Shown: positions 15,282-24,008 of the stretch, piece by piece
Layout: each line of letters opens with the position of its first letter
Numbering within the stretch: position 1 is the first letter of the stretch
IMG/VR virus record: IMGVR_UViG_3300000116_000060
Location: 1 to 38,896 of that record
Source of the DNA: a virus
Strand: one strand, 5' to 3'
DNA: 38,896 nt
Position numbers and translations under genes: made by a program
Notes under the pieces: model-generated
The model's database searches: none
What the model saw: the letters and a program-made list of their open reading frames with translations, nothing else
What the model was told of the DNA's origin: nothing

Positions 15282-16418
15282 TTATCTAGATCGCAAGTCG
15301 ATTATTCTATTCTGGAACCATTCGAAAACAGGGTCAGAAACACTTGCCCAAATTGACGCGCTACCAATTCTATTTTCTGGCATCAATCTTGGACCTGTGG
15401 GTTGGATTTCATACGACCTTACAATCTCGTATCCATTCAAGTGAGTGCCGTCCCCATAACGATTACCAAAGGTTGCTTGGTCGTATTGTATGACGGCTCG
15501 CGTCCTATCAAAATCCAATGTTTCTAACCTGTTTCTAATCTCTGTAATCTGTCTTCTAATATCGGCATCGGTTCCACCTGTGGCGTTCATAATTTCTTGC
15601 GTTGCCACACCACCACGTTGACGTGCCATCTCATACACAACACCAACCCTAGTTCCTCTTCTGAATGGTGCATTTTCTGGGGTAGTAATTGTAATTGGTT
15701 CACTTCCTATTTCAACTCTGTTATCCACAGTTTGTGCGACTAGGGTTAAAAGAAATTCTACCCAATGCGTGATCTTGTCTAGTTCTATTGTACCACTTGC
15801 TTGCCGAAATTCTATAGTGCCTTTTGAAGTCCAAGGTTGTAAGTTAATAACGCAATACTTTCCCATGGCATTGGCTATAAGCTCTTCTATAGTATCGCCA
15901 ACAATTGTTCTGGTTATGGGATTGGCCATATTGTGATTAGTTCTAGATGGTGGAAAAAAACCATTTATCGAAATTTGATTTAATTGATATCTTTCCATGA
16001 TATCTTTTACAGCAATTGCGTCCATTGGCTCTTCCAAACATTCTAATTTAAGAACGTCTATATTCCCATGCCTTTGCATACTTTGAATACATTGACCTGC
16101 AAATGTGACTAAATTAATATCATCTTTTATTTTGGCGTTACCTATATGAACATGCATACCGCAACTTCTATTTACTGTGGCACCTTTTCTTTGAGTTAGT
16201 TCTATTACGCTTTTGATGTAATCAATTGAGAACTGGTTATAAGGTAATGGTGGAAATGCAATTTCTAGATCTACACCTGTGGTGCCATCGGGTCCACAAG
16301 GTACGCCATTAATTCCTGCATCTATAAAAAACTGTGGAAAATCCTCCCAACTTAATCCTGTTCCTGTAAGTGAAAATTCTAGTTCTAATCCAAACAATCT
16401 GTTTTTAATATTTGTCAT
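15282..16418 (-). CDS. Amidoligase (COOH-NH2 ligase, glutamine-synthetase fold)
   Basis: A 378-aa enzyme of the Amidoligase_2 family. Visible motifs are FGLELEF at 9-15 (metal-binding glutamates E12 and E14), GVDLEIAFPPLP at 48-59, the signature CGMHVHIG at 86-93, and KYCVINLQ with GTIEFRQASGT at 187-210, whose R205 and E203 are expected to bind ATP/metal. Family knowledge: these ATP-dependent ligases join carboxyl and amino groups to make gamma-glutamyl or isopeptide links and often neighbour a gamma-glutamylcyclotransferase, as here at 16.8 kb. The substrate is unknown. The gene has its own promoter with an 18-bp palindrome, its own terminator and the leader GAGGAAACACAATG. The C-terminal 120 residues are helical and less familiar. 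Confidence 0.87.
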   Translation of the reverse strand: MTNIKNRLFGLELEFSLTGTGLSWEDFPQFFIDAGINGVPCGPDGTTGVDLEIAFPPLPYNQFSIDYIKSVIELTQRKGATVNRSCGMHVHIGNAKIKDDINLVTFAGQCIQSMQRHGNIDVLKLECLEEPMDAIAVKDIMERYQLNQISINGFFPPSRTNHNMANPITRTIVGDTIEELIANAMGKYCVINLQPWTSKGTIEFRQASGTIELDKITHWVEFLLTLVAQTVDNRVEIGSEPITITTPENAPFRRGTRVGVVYEMARQRGGVATQEIMNATGGTDADIRRQITEIRNRLETLDFDRTRAVIQYDQATFGNRYGDGTHLNGYEIVRSYEIQPTGPRLMPENRIGSASIWASVSDPVFEWFQNRIIDLRSR

Positions 16419-16836: not shown

Positions 16837-17250
16837 TTAAACTGATTGGACATATTTAAACCCCGCTTCTTCTGCCGCAAGTCTTAACGGTGTAGTATCA
16901 AGACCGAAATCCCTATATCCCTCGCCAATCATTCTATAATAACCGTGGCTCGGTGGTGATAGAGCTGTACTATCAACCATAAAATAACAAATCCATTTAT
17001 AGCTATTGATCTTCCTCCTGTTGTATAGGGTTGGGTAACCTTCGACCCGATCCAGTGAGCGCAAGCATTGCGTTGTAATTTTCCAGAGAACAACGGGAGC
17101 TACGCAGTCATCTTCAGGTACTAAGTCAGCAACCCCTCGGAAAACTAAGCGGTAGTTGGGGAGGTAAAACCCCCCCATCGGTTCAGCATCAGGGCAACGC
17201 GCCTTCATGGATTCTAAGTTCGTATTCATTCCATATGATAGATAATACAT
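16837..17250 (-). CDS. Gamma-glutamylcyclotransferase (AIG2/GGCT family)
   Basis: A 137-aa enzyme. I place the start at 17250, where ATG overlaps the upstream stop (TAATG) with GGGAGGG as ribosome site; a frame from 17265 would add five residues. Motifs: YLSYGMNTN at 3-11 (substrate-binding loop), RCPDAEPMG at 18-26, and LDRVEGYP at 66-73 with E70 as the expected catalytic glutamate, then LYNRR. GEGYRDFGL at 109-117 matches the C-terminal signature of phage members. Family knowledge: it releases 5-oxoproline from gamma-glutamyl amines. With the nearby amidoligase it suggests formation and cleavage of gamma-glutamyl links; the target is unknown. Confidence 0.88.
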   Translation of the reverse strand: MYYLSYGMNTNLESMKARCPDAEPMGGFYLPNYRLVFRGVADLVPEDDCVAPVVLWKITTQCLRSLDRVEGYPTLYNRRKINSYKWICYFMVDSTALSPPSHGYYRMIGEGYRDFGLDTTPLRLAAEEAGFKYVQSV

Positions 17251-17600
17251 TAACAGCCCTCCCAAAGTTCTTCCAAGACAGAATCTAAATCCATATAGTC
17301 ATGGTCGTAACTAGCAAATTGTGTTTCATTCCACCAATAACCCTCGACGGTTTTAGTTTTAGTATTGATCCAAATATTAGGGCCGCCAAAAGCAACGCAA
17401 ACCCTTGCACCTAGAAACTTTTTTTCACTTGAAACGATGTATTCAATGTCAAGCGCATCGGCTAGGTAATCGTACCCATCAACGTTCTCGCCATCATCGG
17501 ATGTATAGCCATTTTGTAAATCTTGTGCGATTGACTGAACATTATTTTGTAAGAAATTTGTTCTTACATTATTAGATGTTAATTTAACTGTATTTGTCAT
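17250..17600 (-). CDS. Conserved protein with GGPNIWI-type motif (116 aa)
   Basis: A 116-aa acidic protein. The C-terminal half contains FLGARVCVAFGGPNIWINTK, then TVEGYWWNET and a terminal LDSVLEELWEG. I recall a similar R-V-x-V-x-F-GGPN-[IV]-[YW]-I plus EGYWW pattern in small proteins of bacteria and phages but know no function. It is followed by the cyclotransferase through a TAATG stop-start overlap, so the two are co-translated. The leader AAGGAACACACACAATGACA resembles those of the amidoligase and 71-aa genes. A consensus promoter lies 34 bases upstream. Confidence 0.7.
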   Translation of the reverse strand: MTNTVKLTSNNVRTNFLQNNVQSIAQDLQNGYTSDDGENVDGYDYLADALDIEYIVSSEKKFLGARVCVAFGGPNIWINTKTKTVEGYWWNETQFASYDHDYMDLDSVLEELWEGC

Positions 17601-17833: not shown

Positions 17834-17908
17834 GGTTACAATACAACAGGTTCGCAAAACGCAGCAGTCGGTTTCAATACAACAGGTTCACATAATACAG
17901 CAGTCGGC
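17834..17908 (+). pseudogene. Stranded fragment of tail-fibre-type repeats
   Basis: Two tandem 36-base units encode GYNTTGSQNAAV and GFNTTGSHNTAV, then G, in one plus-strand frame. This is the NTTG-x-x-NTA-x-G signature of the fibre repeats in the gene at the right edge (37989-38896, minus strand). Here the units are 12 residues, without the connecting residues of the intact fibre. The open frame starts after a stop at 17765-17767 and contains no ATG or ribosome site before the fragment; it is followed by palindromic DNA. It is best read as a relic or recombined piece of a fibre gene. Confidence 0.65.
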
Positions 17909-17919
17909 TGCTGCCAGGG

Positions 17920-17947
17920 AATAACACGAACAATTGTTCGACTTATT
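17920..17947. repeat. Palindromic repeat, copy 5
   Basis: A perfect core CGAACAATTGTTCG with AATAA on the left and TTATT on the right; only the two bases between core and arm (CA and AC) fail to pair. It starts immediately after the fibre-repeat fragment. Confidence 0.9.
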
Positions 17948-18016
17948 AAAACGCAGCCACGCAGCCGCCAGGGAAGAAATTTTTTTCCCCTGGGCTGCTG
18001 CGTTCCCCTGGGGGTT

Positions 18017-18038
18017 AACACGAACAATTGTTCGGCTT
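18017..18038. repeat. Palindromic repeat, copy 6
   Basis: A perfect core CGAACAATTGTTCG, left arm AACA, right arm GCTT. Confidence 0.9.
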
Positions 18039-18134
18039 GTGTCCCAGGCAGCCAGGCGCAGCCCGAATCCGATCCAGGCGCTGCTGGGTGCAGCCAGGCG
18101 TATATATGTATATATAGGGTATGCAGCCCGATAT

Positions 18135-18155
18135 CCCGAACAATTGTGGGGTTTA
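18135..18155. repeat. Palindromic repeat, copy 7
   Basis: CCCGAACAATTGT followed by GGGGTTTA: the left half and centre are intact, and the right half is altered but keeps a G-rich arm. Confidence 0.75.
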
Positions 18156-18189
18156 ATCCCGATTCCGATCCGATGCCCGATCCCGATGA

Positions 18190-18213
18190 TAACCCGAACA
18201 ATTCATCGGTTTA
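18190..18213. repeat. Palindromic repeat, copy 8
   Basis: TAACCCGAACAATT then CATCGGTTTA. The centre no longer reads as a palindrome, but AACCGA-type arms still pair, and a T-rich run follows on the plus strand, so this copy could also act as a weak terminator. Confidence 0.8.
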
Positions 18214-18261
18214 TTTTTTTGGCAGCCTGCTGCGCCCCGAATCTTCCCTGGCAGCGTCCCG

Positions 18262-18287
18262 ATAACCCGAACAATTTATCGGGTTAT
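18262..18287. repeat. Palindromic repeat, copy 9 (perfect 9-bp arms)
   Basis: ATAACCCGA and TCGGGTTAT are perfect inverted arms around ACAATTTA. The core palindrome is lost in the right half while the arms stay complementary, suggesting that hairpin formation matters. Confidence 0.88.
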
Positions 18288-18391: not shown

Positions 18392-18892
18392 TTATTGGAC
18401 TTTTGTGGTATTACCTGTTTTTTCGCTAGGTGTGATGTCGATCATTCTGTCTTTAGCACGATCCATGAACTCTTGGAGTTTAAGAGCTATGTCTTCTCGT
18501 GTCATAGCGTCGATATTCTCGTGCGTGACGTGGCTCCGATTGACCATAAGCCCCGTTACCTTCAAACGAAGCTCTTCAGCCTTTATAGCGGCAGAATAAT
18601 TACCCACATCCCAAGCCTCATCTCTGAGCCGTTGCATATCTCTGACGGATTTTGTGATGGTGACTCCGAATTTGCTTTCGAGTTCCATTCTCATTTCTTC
18701 GAGCCGTTCTTTTAATTTTGGCATATTGAGCAACTGGACTGCTGAGACATTTGCGTTCTTATACCCTGCCTCTCTTGCGGAGGCTGTTTGAGTTAGATCC
18801 TTGTGAACGTAGTTGTCCAGAAACTTTTGTTGCTGTGGTGTGATCCTACGTTCAGCTAATCCATTTTTTCTTGACTCACCAAATTTAGACAT
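18392..18892 (-). CDS. terS: Terminase small subunit
   Basis: A 166-aa protein from the ATG at 18892 (MSKFGESRKNGLAERRITPQ), which has AGGA upstream; a longer frame to 18955 has no ribosome site. ITPQQQKFLDNYVHKDLTQT, then ASAREAGYKN and the LLNMPKLKERLEEM segment, matches the Terminase_2-like helix-turn-helix domain that recognises the packaging site. A coiled helix region for oligomerisation follows (about 85-130). It lies 7.9 kb from the large subunit, next to the repeat cluster, so its recognition site may be in that cluster. It is the only minus-strand gene between the repeat cluster and the early operon. Confidence 0.82.
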   Translation of the reverse strand: MSKFGESRKNGLAERRITPQQQKFLDNYVHKDLTQTASAREAGYKNANVSAVQLLNMPKLKERLEEMRMELESKFGVTITKSVRDMQRLRDEAWDVGNYSAAIKAEELRLKVTGLMVNRSHVTHENIDAMTREDIALKLQEFMDRAKDRMIDITPSEKTGNTTKVQ

Positions 18893-19004
18893 TTTGTATC
18901 CTAAGCAATTTAATCCGACTGCCCCCACATCTATCATTCTGACAGCTATGGTCAATACTATTATGTCCCTCCTAATTCCTGCGGCTAATATTATAATTAC
19001 ATCA

Positions 19005-19040
19005 GGGGGGGTTGGGTATATACCCCCCCTTATAGGGGGG
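19005..19040. repeat. G7/C7/G6 hairpin element
   Basis: A run of seven G (19005-19011), the palindrome GGGTATATACCC (19014-19025) running into seven C (19023-19029), then six G (19035-19040). The C run can pair with either G run, giving two mutually exclusive hairpins. The G runs could also join a four-strand structure. It borders the TTGACGTA array. Confidence 0.8.
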
Positions 19041-19200
19041 TGACGTAGTTGACGTAAAATAAGTCATTGATTTTAAACGATTATTTACGTCAAATTGACT
19101 TTTTGACGTACTTGACGTAAATCGATAAGTCATTGATTTTGTTACATATTCTACGTTACGTCAACTACGTCAAGATTTGACGTGGTTTATTTTGACGTAA
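19041..19200. repeat. TTGACGTA array, candidate operator or iterons
   Basis: Eight or nine TTGACGTA-like octamers occur in both orientations in 160 bases. Paired forms are TGACGTAGTTGACGTAA at 19041-19057, TGACGTACTTGACGTAA at 19104-19120 and the exact reverse complement TTACGTCAACTACGTCA at 19156-19172. Single sites are at 19086-19093, 19177 and 19192. The first two pairs are each followed by ATAAGTCATTGATTTT, making a direct repeat of about 35 bases spaced by 63. The array lies in the divergent gap between the terminase small subunit and the early operon, so it is a good site for a phage regulator or initiator. Confidence 0.85.
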
Positions 19201-19206
19201 AATAAA

Positions 19207-19234
19207 TTGACACTAGGTATTGTGTTCCCATAAC
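19207..19234 (+). promoter_or_regulatory. Promoter candidate of the rightward early operon
   Basis: TTGACA (19207-19212) followed after 16 bases by CATAAC (four of six). It lies directly after the last TTGACGTA site; the -35 may share bases with that motif family. The transcript leader of about 70 bases ends in AGAGGTGTAAAATG. A TAGTAT box further down (about 19237) is an alternative -10. Confidence 0.5.
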
Positions 19235-19309
19235 GCATAGTATAGGATCGTCTTATTAGGGCAAAAAAAGGATACCTAAAACAATTAATTTTAACAGTAG
19301 AGGTGTAAA

Positions 19310-19775: not shown

Positions 19776-20038
19776 GTATTAGTGTAGAAGATTGGCTAGG
19801 CAACCGTGGTCTCTTGGATGATAATTTTTACAAGGACAGCGCGATGAGCAAGCTTCGTCGGAACAAGATCCGAGGTGATTGGCTCTTTATTCAGTCTGAC
19901 GGTGGTTGGGGTGATGTAGAAGTCGAGGCTTATCAGTTAAGCAATATGTATGGGGAGTGCTACGATGCGTGGCCTTCCAAGGGTTTTAGTTGGTCAGCGG
20001 CTAACTTAGCAAAGAAAGTAGAGAGGTTAGAGGCATGA
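19772..20038 (+). CDS. Early-operon protein (88 aa)
   Basis: The start is taken at the ATG at 19772 (MSISVEDWLGNRGLLDDNFY), with AAGGATTGGGG just upstream; an in-frame TTG at 19766 is less likely. The protein has a basic patch KLRRNKIRGDW, a beta-like WLFIQSDGGWGDVEVEAY and a terminal helix AANLAKKVERLEA. No family recognised. It overlaps the previous stop (ATGA) and the next start (ATGA), so it is translationally coupled on both sides. Confidence 0.65.
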   Translation: MSISVEDWLGNRGLLDDNFYKDSAMSKLRRNKIRGDWLFIQSDGGWGDVEVEAYQLSNMYGECYDAWPSKGFSWSAANLAKKVERLEA

Positions 20039-20268
20039 ACGAAGTTAGATTAGTATTAAGTTCCGAGGACTATATTACGTTGTATTCTGAACTTGCAGAT
20101 CGAAGATTGAAAGCCTTAGATATTGTGTCGTTGGATGGTGTAATTTATGTTGAGGATGCTCAAGGAAACACTTCTTATTCCGATTGGGCGCAAGGTGAGT
20201 TTGATGACGAGTGCGTTATCATTGAGGATATTTTAGCAAACATGGGAATAGTACAGGAGAATGTGTAA
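20035..20268 (+). CDS. Early-operon acidic protein (77 aa)
   Basis: A 77-aa strongly acidic protein (MNEVRLVLSSEDYITLYSEL ... GVIYVEDAQGNTSYSDWAQG ... DECVIIEDILANMGI). The alternating beta/helix pattern suggests a compact alpha/beta domain; the negative surface is typical of phage proteins that mimic DNA or bind host proteins, but there is no direct evidence. It overlaps both neighbours (ATGA and TAATG). Confidence 0.6.
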   Translation: MNEVRLVLSSEDYITLYSELADRRLKALDIVSLDGVIYVEDAQGNTSYSDWAQGEFDDECVIIEDILANMGIVQENV

Positions 20269-20468
20269 TGCCTTTGTATTTAAAAAAATCGCACCACAGC
20301 CGTGGTTTTGATGTCTTTGGTTACAGGGACAAGGCTTGCCGTTATCCTAAGATGCACTGGCAATGGCATGAGGAAAACAAGCCCGATGATGACACTTATG
20401 AGATTGAAATGGACAGCAACGAAAAGAAAAAAAATGTTTGGCGAGTTATTTGGATGGCGGATGTGTAA
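20268..20468 (+). CDS. Early-operon protein rich in His, Trp and Lys (66 aa)
   Basis: A 66-aa protein starting MPLYLKKSHHSRGFDVFGYR, with CRYPKMHWQWHEENKPDDDT and ending NVWRVIWMADV. The His/Cys content could bind metal, but no regular motif is present. Start and stop overlap neighbours as TAATG at both ends. No family recognised. Confidence 0.58.
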   Translation: MPLYLKKSHHSRGFDVFGYRDKACRYPKMHWQWHEENKPDDDTYEIEMDSNEKKKNVWRVIWMADV

Positions 20469-20539
20469 TGGGTAAGTTTGTATTCTGGAATATGTTTTTC
20501 TTATTTTTAGTGGGGAGTTTAGTTTTATGGATTGCGTAA
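20468..20539 (+). CDS. Candidate 23-aa single-span membrane peptide
   Basis: An ATG overlapping the previous stop (TAATG), with GGATGTG upstream, opens a 23-codon ORF. It starts MGKFVFWNMFF and ends in a hydrophobic FLFLVGSLVLWIA segment, a single transmembrane helix. It overlaps the start of the zinc-ribbon gene by 13 bases. It fits the stop-start chain of this operon exactly, which is the main support. It may be a lysis-timing or membrane regulator; unknown. Confidence 0.5.
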   Translation: MGKFVFWNMFFLFLVGSLVLWIA

Positions 20540-20715
20540 CGTGTCCCGACTGCAATTCTGCTAAAGTTAGGGTAAAGGATAGCAGAAGTATTGAGTTGTT
20601 TGGCTTTAAGACCAAGCGCAGAAGGCGGCATTGCTTAGATTGCAACAACAGATATAATACTGTTGAGTTGCCTGAGATTTTTGTAAAAGATGTTTTTGGA
20701 GAAGATAATGACTAG
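20527..20715 (+). CDS. NrdR-like zinc-ribbon protein without ATP-cone (62 aa)
   Basis: A 62-aa protein with CPDC at about 6-9, VRVKDSR, then KRRRRHCLDCNNRYNTVELP. This closely follows the N-terminal zinc ribbon of NrdR, the repressor of ribonucleotide reductase genes (pattern CPxC, VxDSR, RRRRxC-x-x-C-x-x-R-[FY]-x-T-x-E). The ATP-cone domain that follows in NrdR is absent. It might bind NrdR-type boxes or other DNA without nucleotide control; this is inference. It overlaps the membrane peptide and the next gene. Confidence 0.72.
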   Translation: MDCVTCPDCNSAKVRVKDSRSIELFGFKTKRRRRHCLDCNNRYNTVELPEIFVKDVFGEDND

Positions 20716-21521: not shown

Positions 21522-21755
21522 TTAATCCCATTTAGCATCACCTTTTAAGAAAATAGCGTTCCCGACGATGCCTGTTTTAGCTAAATCTGTAGCCTTATCG
21601 TTCCAAGGTAGGTCTAAGAGTAGACCTTCTTCGTTAACGAGCAACTGAGCATCAGGATCTGAAGGGCAATAGACTATTTGAACCATTCCCCCAACGTATT
21701 CTTGTGCTTCTTTTAAAGTAGGTCTTTCTTTTTTTGTATTATATACTGCGAACAT
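21522..21755 (-). CDS. DUF3846-like small protein (77 aa)
   Basis: A 77-aa protein with LKEAQEYVGGMVQIVYCP, then LLVNEEGLLLDLPWNDKAT and IVGNAIFLKGD. The order (Leu-x-x-[AM]-Q-x-x-VGG then VNEEG-x-x-x-x-LP-x-N and [IV]-x-GN) is that of DUF3846, small proteins common in phages and plasmids with no proven role. AAAGGAATAGAAA precedes the ATG. It sits after the primase-helicase gene with a 60-base gap that has a weak promoter-like TTTACT. Confidence 0.72.
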   Translation of the reverse strand: MFAVYNTKKERPTLKEAQEYVGGMVQIVYCPSDPDAQLLVNEEGLLLDLPWNDKATDLAKTGIVGNAIFLKGDAKWD

Positions 21756-21815: not shown

Positions 21816-24008
21816 TTATAGATTACCTCTTGCAGTACGAGCTTCGTATACCTCATTTGCCATTGCACCATCCATAGTTCCGAGCCACTTTTTAGCTCCT
21901 CCCTGAGTAAGTCTATATACGTCAATTCTACCACTTTCTTGAAGTTGGGTAACGGTGTTTTTTATTGTAGTTTGTTCAAATGCTTTTAACGCTATTACGA
22001 AAGGTTCTGTTAATGTGGCAACACGAATAGATTCAAACACGCCATCATCTTTACCGCCTTTGGTGACTGCCTCGCCATTTCGCTCACACATTTCGATAAA
22101 CTGGTACATATGGTTTTGTCTTAAACGTATGGTTTCCGAGAGAGCTAAGTTACGAATATCTTGTGATCTGTCTTCAAGTAAACCTGTGTCTTGATTCCGA
22201 ATAAAGTGACGTATATCCCGATTAGCTGGACCGTTTGATTTAACTACACCACCATCGAATACGGTGTTTCTTGTATATGTTATATCCAGATCTTTACAGC
22301 GTTCACGACCGATCTTCTCGTCCACTTGCCAGACGGAGAACGCAGACCGCACACCGTCTACAATAGCTGATGTACCCCTGATAAGGTTACGCGCCTGTTC
22401 TGGAGTTTTGATAGGCTCATTCTCTCTAATCTTAGCCATGTGGTGATTAACCATGACTGTTGCACCTGTTTCTGTGGATAGCTGTGCGAGCATACCCATG
22501 AAGGCCGCCCCTGCCGCTGGATCAGCGTTTATGTCTGCATGGACAAAAGATGCCATTGGATCAGCAATAAACAGAGCTAAGTTATCAATTTCTAATATCT
22601 GTTCATAGAGCCTTTCGAACTCTGCTCCCATAACGTATGAATTATCTATCTTCTGCATCATGGGAAATACACCGCCCAAGTTAGGTAACGGAAGCACTCT
22701 CATATCGTGTTCGTAATCAAATCTTTTTCTCCTGGGATCTAGTCGCTCCACACGTCTGTGCAATTCGTCTTTATCATCCTCCGCTGTCATAATGACTACA
22801 TTACCATGCGTAGATACTAATCCCCCGAAGGAGCTTTGCATTGAGAACCCTGACGCTACTTTCATAGCGAGATCAAGTGTCATCATTCCTTTTCCCGAAT
22901 CACCAGCCGCTGCAAAAACGACAGGTACGCCCAGAGGTATTGTATCTGCGATCAGAAACTTCTGTTCTGGTGCTTTACCTACAAACATTTCCGATATGAG
23001 TAAGCTGTTATCTTTTAAAGAAATATTCTGTTTAGTTTTATGCTGTGGTTCATTTAAGAACTTATTGATGTCAAAACCTTCTGTGATTGCATCAGAAACG
23101 TCCCACTTCTCAGGCTTACCCCTTGGTGGCGACAGCATTGTTACAGACTTAGCCCCTGCTTTGGAGGCTAAATCTTGGACTAACTTTGCAATCTTTATTC
23201 CTGCACTATCATTATCAGGCCAGATAATAACCTGTTTACCCTGTAATGGAGAGAAGTCGTAACTTGGAGCTGACTTAACAGATAACATACCTGCACCCCC
23301 TAAGTTACAGGTTGCTGTGTAGCCCATAGCTTTTAGATCATCTGCACATTTCTCACCTTCAACCCAGATAACGCGCTCTGCTTCCAGAATGTCTGGAATG
23401 TTGTACAAGGGACGAGTGTCGGGCATTTTAGGATATGTGCTTTGACCTGAGAACTGTCTAAATTCTTTTTTGGCCTTGCCGTCCGATCCTCGCATAATCT
23501 CACCCGAATCATCTTTGGATATGTATCTACGGACAGAGCAAATGATCTCACCATCTTCTGATACATAGAAATGCTCACCATCAAAAGGAGTGTTAATATC
23601 TATCTGAACTTTAGCTTTAGCTGGAGCTGGCGCATCTAAATTAGGTTTTATCGGGTTTTCTGGTGGTCTGGTGTATTCTGGCCCATCTAAATAGTCACTA
23701 AAATATTCCGTAACATCTCTTAGGGTCATTCCTCGACCCTCCATCATAATCTTTGCGATACCTCCGATACCTTCACTGGTACTAAAATCCATACCCTGCA
23801 TAAAGTCAGCACGGTTAGAATCTACAGAAATTTTTAGAGATTTTCCGACCTCACCGCTTAACGATCCGATCTCAAATTGAGTGCCTCTGATAACACCGTT
23901 TGGGTATGTATCCACCAGTGCTTGCAACTGTATGCTACGAGGCACTTTGTCACTGATTTCTTCTGCTAAATTACTGGATTTAGTATTGCTAAGTCTTATT
24001 ACTACCAT
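21816..24008 (-). CDS. Primase-helicase (TOPRIM plus RepA-like ATPase)
   Basis: A 730-aa fusion. An N-terminal region (1-125) of unclear fold leads to a primase-like part with a TOPRIM core: WVEGEK at 215-220 (catalytic E), GGAGMLS at 237-243 and WPDNDSAG at 263-270. The helicase/ATPase part resembles AAA_25/RepA: Walker A GDSGKGM at 369-375, where the usual S/T after K is G (a variant I recall in related phage proteins), Walker B LALFIADP at 477-484 and NHH at 521-523, then RGTSAIVDGVRSAF. The C-terminal about 100 residues look like a winged helix. It would unwind and prime the phage origin. No separate CHC2 zinc domain is visible. Confidence 0.82.
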   Translation of the reverse strand: MVVIRLSNTKSSNLAEEISDKVPRSIQLQALVDTYPNGVIRGTQFEIGSLSGEVGKSLKISVDSNRADFMQGMDFSTSEGIGGIAKIMMEGRGMTLRDVTEYFSDYLDGPEYTRPPENPIKPNLDAPAPAKAKVQIDINTPFDGEHFYVSEDGEIICSVRRYISKDDSGEIMRGSDGKAKKEFRQFSGQSTYPKMPDTRPLYNIPDILEAERVIWVEGEKCADDLKAMGYTATCNLGGAGMLSVKSAPSYDFSPLQGKQVIIWPDNDSAGIKIAKLVQDLASKAGAKSVTMLSPPRGKPEKWDVSDAITEGFDINKFLNEPQHKTKQNISLKDNSLLISEMFVGKAPEQKFLIADTIPLGVPVVFAAAGDSGKGMMTLDLAMKVASGFSMQSSFGGLVSTHGNVVIMTAEDDKDELHRRVERLDPRRKRFDYEHDMRVLPLPNLGGVFPMMQKIDNSYVMGAEFERLYEQILEIDNLALFIADPMASFVHADINADPAAGAAFMGMLAQLSTETGATVMVNHHMAKIRENEPIKTPEQARNLIRGTSAIVDGVRSAFSVWQVDEKIGRERCKDLDITYTRNTVFDGGVVKSNGPANRDIRHFIRNQDTGLLEDRSQDIRNLALSETIRLRQNHMYQFIEMCERNGEAVTKGGKDDGVFESIRVATLTEPFVIALKAFEQTTIKNTVTQLQESGRIDVYRLTQGGAKKWLGTMDGAMANEVYEARTARGNL

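Follow-up and report, generated by a model that had tools for sequence, protein, structure and literature searches.

What is the function of a dense array of short repeats, bordered by a G/C-rich hairpin, that lies in a tailed-phage genome between the gene for the terminase small subunit (TerS, minus strand) and a run of small early open reading frames (ORFs) on the plus strand? The window, as we call the whole stretch of DNA analysed here, is a 38,896-base virus record that encodes an SU10-like portal and a large terminase, together with a primase-helicase, a Cas4-type exonuclease, a Sak4-like protein and a Holliday junction resolvase. From comparisons among related sequences we propose that 19005-19199 is probably a replication origin, with iterons that would be bound by the predicted winged-helix tail of the primase-helicase, the DNA being bent by IHF. 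The phage group that carries the array is uncultured and probably marine.

An octamer array beside a double hairpin

Nine octamers of the TTGACGTA type were located at 19040-19199 (160 bp), in agreement with the eight to nine sites in both orientations reported in an earlier, sequence-only reading of this DNA. Seven of them are exact (19049+, 19086-, 19103+, 19112+, 19157-, 19166- and 19192+), and two carry one mismatch (GTGACGTA at 19040+ and TTGACGTG at 19177+). As a control for chance, we generated 60 sequences of equal length under a first-order Markov model; these contained at most three clustered copies of one 8-mer, compared with seven in 200 bp here. The same reading had described a direct repeat of about 35 bases and an exact inverted copy; both are present, the direct repeat being interrupted (an 18-mer at 19041/19104, then a 16-mer at 19059/19125) and the inverted copy exact over 17 bp (19041-19057/19156-19172). 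The octamers begin directly after a G7/C7/G6 element (G7 at 19005-19011, C7 at 19023-19029 and G6 at 19035-19040), which sits upstream of both divergent transcription units; with this three-run layout C7 is able to pair with either G run, confirming the mutually exclusive hairpin as first described. In addition, two boxes at fixed places match the IHF consensus WATCAANNNNTTR, as given in PMC4585315, exactly (Table 1).

The early promoter that had been assigned to a -35 TTGACA at 19207 did not hold up, as a sigma-70 scan finds no promoter there; this TTGACA is absent from a close relative (L003), and the TTGACA box of more distant relatives lies further right. The flank at 19200-19309 is modestly AT-rich (69%, versus 60% for the window), and AT runs beside the array are stronger in relatives than in the window. 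GC skew along the window tracks gene orientation and the coding strand, and gives no origin signal.

Other features of the surroundings were recorded. A second repeat region lies past the 3' end of the TerS gene (17850-18270), with near-palindromes around CGAACAATTGTTCG and a ATATATGTATATATA stretch; in relatives this region holds 8-13 CCCGAA/TCGGG units (L024 10480-10960, L150 19540-19690 and L043 11600-11690). Amidoligase-like and gamma-glutamyl cyclotransferase genes are near each other in the window (15282-16418 and 16837-17265, both on the minus strand), and most relatives carry a member of the cyclotransferase family as an early gene on the plus strand.

Table 1. Coordinates of the proposed origin elements, the adjacent TerS gene and the proposed initiator gene in the window.
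Feature	Position	Strand	Description and basis
TerS	18392..18955	-	PHROG terminase small, 8e-12; conserved left neighbour of the array, without octamer covariation
Double hairpin G7-N11-C7-N5-G6, mutually exclusive	19005..19040	.	Left edge of the proposed origin; sequence
Iterons 1 and 2, tandem, start-to-start 9 bp	19040..19056	+	Octamer positions in the window and in aligned arrays
IHF-type box 1	19060..19072	-	Exact WATCAANNNNTTR on the minus strand; consensus match
Iteron 3, inverted	19086..19093	-	Octamer positions in the window and in aligned arrays
Iterons 4 and 5, tandem, 9 bp	19103..19119	+	Octamer positions in the window and in aligned arrays
IHF-type box 2	19126..19138	-	Exact WATCAANNNNTTR on the minus strand; consensus match
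Iterons 6 and 7, tandem, inverted	19157..19173	-	Octamer positions in the window and in aligned arrays
Iterons 8 (TTGACGTG) and 9	19177..19199	+	Octamer positions in the window and in aligned arrays
Primase-helicase, 730 aa, proposed initiator	21816..24008	-	Toprim-type primase, RecA-like RepA-type hexameric helicase and C-terminal winged helix (predicted)
Specificity region, residues ~540-730	21816..22391	-	Covariation; winged helix about residues 615-711, recognition helix 679-692 with Lys683 (predicted)

The array is conserved in one large group of phages

Several hundred related loci were collected in searches with TerS and with the primase-helicase. Among described phages, no match to the region was obtained with the DNA around the array or with TerS, and the closest primase is that of Wolbachia phage WO (about 35%). 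Pelagiphage HTVC027P and phage 023Pt_psg01 have the TerL in common, but no such array was found in the first 50 kb of each record.

In 71 distinct aligned arrays, the hairpin and the order and orientation of the sites (+ + - + + - - + +) are kept, and the distance between the outer sites is mostly 143 bp. The nine copies of a short site are thus held at conserved spacing, as in iteron origins, and array order, the loss of which in close relatives had been named in advance as grounds for abandoning the sequence-only reading, persists. IHF-type box 1 is exact in 57 of the 71 arrays and differs by one base in the remaining 14 (0.2% were exact in a shuffled control), and box 2 is exact in 62 and differs by one base in the remaining nine. 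A third, inverted IHF-like element (CGTTTAAAATCAATG) occurs just right of the last iteron in many relatives (for example, L035, L038 and L023) and is absent from the window. When loci were fetched by the array motif alone, the hairpin was present and a divergent TerS gene was adjacent in 80 of 80. Furthermore, the inner pairs of the hairpin beside the G/C runs covary (TA/TA, AT/AT, TTA/TAA and AAT/ATT), with a mean of 1.42 compared with 0.56 when the loops were shuffled, which would fit a single-stranded or cruciform element for loading or priming.

The octamer itself differs between phages, yet it is uniform or nearly so inside each genome. The classes observed were TTGACGTA, TTAACGTA, TTGAAGTA, TTGACCAA, C/TTGGAGTA, CTGGACTA, TTACCGTA/TTACTGTA, TTCCGGTA and TTCATGTA. 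All nine sites change sequence together, while their positions and orientations stay. Some genomes mix two neighbouring variants, as expected of intermediates, and certain classes have degenerate sequence at one or two of their nine sites. A search of viral contigs with a pattern written for TGGAGTA arrays gave no match, the pattern being too strict.

In the distant clade L106/L111, which has the same enzyme, no matching array was found near the TerS gene, indicating that the array belongs to one large group and does not accompany every relative of the enzyme. At 19900-20620 and in the region before it, L106 has a non-coding stretch with ATGTAGG-like repeats and another GC hairpin, possibly an origin of a different type. 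Primase-helicases at 54-58% identity are also encoded by two contigs (L306 and L307) binned as Rhodobacteraceae and Maricaulis genomes, a binning that hints at alphaproteobacterial hosts; the G/C/G hairpin array was not found in these two contigs.

The octamer changes with the C-terminal part of the primase-helicase

Closely related phages with different octamers provided natural experiments: L032 (TTGACCAA) and L036 (TTGACGTA) share 96% identity across 4.1 kb, and L040 (TTGAAGTA) is ~90% identical to L035 (TTGACGTA), with L038 (TTGACGTA) compared likewise. The DNA-binding half of TerS is the same across these pairs (L040 versus L035/L038, and L032 versus L036), indicating that TerS is not the octamer reader; TerS identity despite an octamer change reaches 99% for L035/L040 and 98% for L030/L153, and L032/L036 are identical in the HTH region. 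Cas4 is likewise 93-100% identical across the octamer classes in this clade. The primase-helicases of L030 (CTGGAGTA) and L153 (TTGACGTA) show 92 differences, of which nearly all lie after residue 520, and the same pattern was observed between L040 and L158.

This distribution was also evident in the 41 genomes with an array and a complete primase. Octamer distance was associated with distance in primase residues 520-730 once residues 1-500 had been corrected for (partial Mantel r=0.35, p=0.0005), the reverse test gave r=-0.11 (residues 1-500 corrected for 520-730), and TerS showed no association (r=0.05, p=0.33), although such tests lessen the effect of shared ancestry without fully removing it. 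A 60-residue sliding window along the primase was best at residues 571-630 (r=0.53), and a scan of 16 gene families against the octamer placed the primase first (TerS, -0.12; Cas4, -0.17; SF2 helicase, -0.20). In addition, L030, L071 and L037 (C/TTGGAGTA) share 97-99% of residues 1-520 with TTGACGTA phages but 58-60% of residues 540-730. The trees of the two halves of the enzyme disagree, the C-termini of these three phages joining the TGGAGTA clade with a support of 0.995; as read from the sequences, this is an exchange of the tail along with the array type. The repeats of relatives thus appear to change with the DNA-reading end of the primase-helicase, as though the 'password' for starting DNA copying had been switched, and the phage-encoded DNA-binding domain is matched to its site by covariation only.

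Other candidate binders were rejected. The ~70-aa early ORFs that are replaced between L032 and L036 are not homologous across pairs, and the DUF3846 protein encoded beside the primase (21522-21755) has no association with the octamer. The zinc-ribbon and other early-operon proteins, which the sequence-only reading had suggested as binders, are missing from nearly all array-bearing relatives, and it is the C-terminus of the primase-helicase that tracks the octamer instead. The zinc ribbon of the window, an NrdR-like protein of 62 aa in the early operon (20527-20715, plus strand; PF22811, 3.6e-11), was found among array-bearing loci only in the window and L003.

These comparisons also bear on a packaging site of the cosB or pac type, in which TerS and IHF would bind the repeats and the G/C palindrome would be the cut site, as in lambda cos or P1 pac. 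The combination of repeats with IHF is indeed reminiscent of cosB of lambda and of P1 pac, the hairpin is rich in G/C, and TerS is the divergent neighbour at every locus found by the array motif. However, TerS is essentially unchanged when all the octamers change and shows no association with the motif, so that, as tested by covariation, the repeats do not appear to be recognised by the neighbouring TerS. Moreover, in a weak test, contig ends showed no preference for the hairpin: only about two of the motif-found loci had the array lying roughly 100 bp or less from the end of a contig, about as many as expected. We therefore dropped packaging as the main reading and keep it as an improbable rival, because TerS constantly neighbours the array.

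A predicted winged helix and residue 683

The primase-helicase gene, which lies kilobases from the array, matches Pfam AAA_25 (PF13481, 1.3e-27) and a PHROG primase/helicase family (6e-30); a primase and a hexameric helicase are thus present in one chain, the Toprim match being weak. By profile, the helicase core matches RSF1010 RepA, and the whole chain is similar to T7 gp4, Twinkle and RepA. AlphaFold2 models of the whole protein and of residues 612-730 alone (pLDDT 84.9 and pTM 0.78 for the latter) both predicted a helix-helix-helix-strand-strand order, that is, a winged helix. Structural matches were nearly all winged helices (Fur/Nur, MepR, MecI/BlaI, DtxR and RPA32C), with middling Z scores of about 7; the E-values of a Foldseek search with the winged-helix model were not significant, and a sequence profile compared with the PDB gave no significant match to a winged-helix family. 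From the predicted fold and the covariation, the C-terminal domain may be specific for the iterons.

Within the third helix of this domain, residue 683 is Lys in 32 of the 41 genomes, and position 5 of the octamer is C in 31 of these and a C/T mixture in one. All nine genomes without C at position 5 have Asn, Ile, Gly, Leu or Glu instead, and Asn683 is shared by both TTGAAGTA phages (L040 and L225), which come from distant, unrelated clades. Of the 20 residue-octamer pairs ranked strongest by branch-wise parsimony, 18 fall beyond residue 540. The association of residue 683 with position 5 (p=5.5e-4 before multiple testing) is, like all single residue-octamer pairs, significant only nominally, and other C-terminal residues score better.

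Operator and base-pairing explanations

If the array were a multi-site operator without origin function, the protein bound there, either the primase-helicase or a small regulator, would control the divergent promoters of the early and late genes. The array does lie between divergent transcription units, where control sites are often found in small phage genomes. However, the domain that covaries is part of a primase-helicase, the small early proteins are not retained alongside the array, and nine spaced sites with IHF boxes, spread over 160 bp, are more than an operator usually has. Nor do the promoter boxes follow the motif: TTGACA remains the same while all octamers change (L030, L037 and L012), which argues against the earlier suggestion that one operator protein also covers the -35 element. 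We consider it unlikely that the array is such an operator. TCCCAAA...TCCCA-like elements flank the array at both divergent promoters of many relatives (L040, L035, L042, L012 and others), and are perhaps the real operator for both divergent units.

That the repeats form a single-stranded RNA or DNA structure, with plus and minus octamers paired and their concerted change being base-pair compensation, is scarcely credible despite the long exact inverted repeats (17-18 bp) and the covarying G/C hairpin next to them, because six sites have one orientation and three the other, all nine change, including those without a partner, and the co-varying partner is a protein domain.

Discussion

The retention of the array and hairpin, the concerted change of the motif, its covariation with the C-terminus of the primase-helicase, the winged-helix prediction and the residue that tracks position 5 all argue for the origin reading, and the proposal that the octamers are iterons of a phage origin is now well supported. 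For a helicase whose tail would read a repeated site with IHF boxes beside it, the best explanation is an initiator acting at its own origin. We propose that the C-terminal winged helix of the single-chain primase-helicase would bind the nine iterons, which are arranged in tandem pairs and in both orientations, and that the two host IHF-type boxes between them would bend the DNA and thereby bring the bound copies together. The hexameric helicase would then load next to, or into, the G/C hairpin, which in single-stranded form may act as a loading or priming element. Binding to the octamers, binding of IHF to its boxes, helicase loading, the role of the hairpin and the start of replication at the array are all inferred from these comparisons.

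More tentatively, and with less confidence than we place in the origin itself, origin specificity might behave like an immunity type, the iterons and the winged-helix tail having been switched together repeatedly, both by tail exchange and by stepwise change under a residue-to-base rule (Lys683-C5, Asn-A5 and Glu-G5). Such switching could be driven by escape from origin parasites or origin-directed nucleases, or by replication interference from co-infecting phages. For this widespread group of uncultured phages, natural swap experiments allowed the likely origin and the likely initiator to be located from sequence alone, and about 120 residues and 160 bp would provide a compact, testable system for studying how initiator specificity changes.

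Among known systems, the alpha protein of phage satellite P4 appears nearest in layout. P4 alpha combines a primase, an SF3-type helicase and a C-terminal origin-binding domain in one polypeptide, and reads the iterons of ori and crr. The single chain and the C-terminal domain reading short iterons in both orientations (here predicted) are common to both, whereas the helicase of the present enzyme is RecA-like (RepA/T7 gp4 type), as its matches to PF13481 and RSF1010 RepA indicate, and its origin contains IHF boxes and a G/C double hairpin and is far from the gene. Therefore, we propose that the enzyme works like P4 alpha without filing it in the P4 alpha family. In the oriV of RSF1010 (IncQ), iterons and hairpins lie near the origin, and RepA, RepB' and RepC are separate. 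The RepA-type helicase, the iterons and the nearby hairpins are thus shared with that plasmid, whereas the primase, helicase and proposed iteron reader, three separate proteins there, are fused here.

In SaPI Rep and SCCmec Cch2, a C-terminal domain of the initiator helicase reads the origin iterons (PMC7581432), as predicted here. Those proteins belong to other helicase families, with a separate primase and an origin directly downstream of the gene, whereas the present origin is kilobases from the gene and beside TerS. In the PLE satellites of Vibrio cholerae phages, RepA has a DNA-binding domain that covaries with the origin, and replication requires that the two be cognate (PMC8263062). As in PLE, the DNA-binding domain and origin seem to be swapped as a module while the remaining protein is conserved; PLE differs in being a satellite with a RepA_N initiator and ~30-bp semi-palindromic iterons (PMC8263062), compared with octamers and a predicted winged helix carried by a phage primase-helicase, and cognate pairing was shown experimentally in PLE, whereas it is represented here by covariation only. 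Modular origin switching, known from satellites such as those with PLE RepA, would thus be extended to phages and to a primase-helicase fusion, which raises the question of what selects for it.
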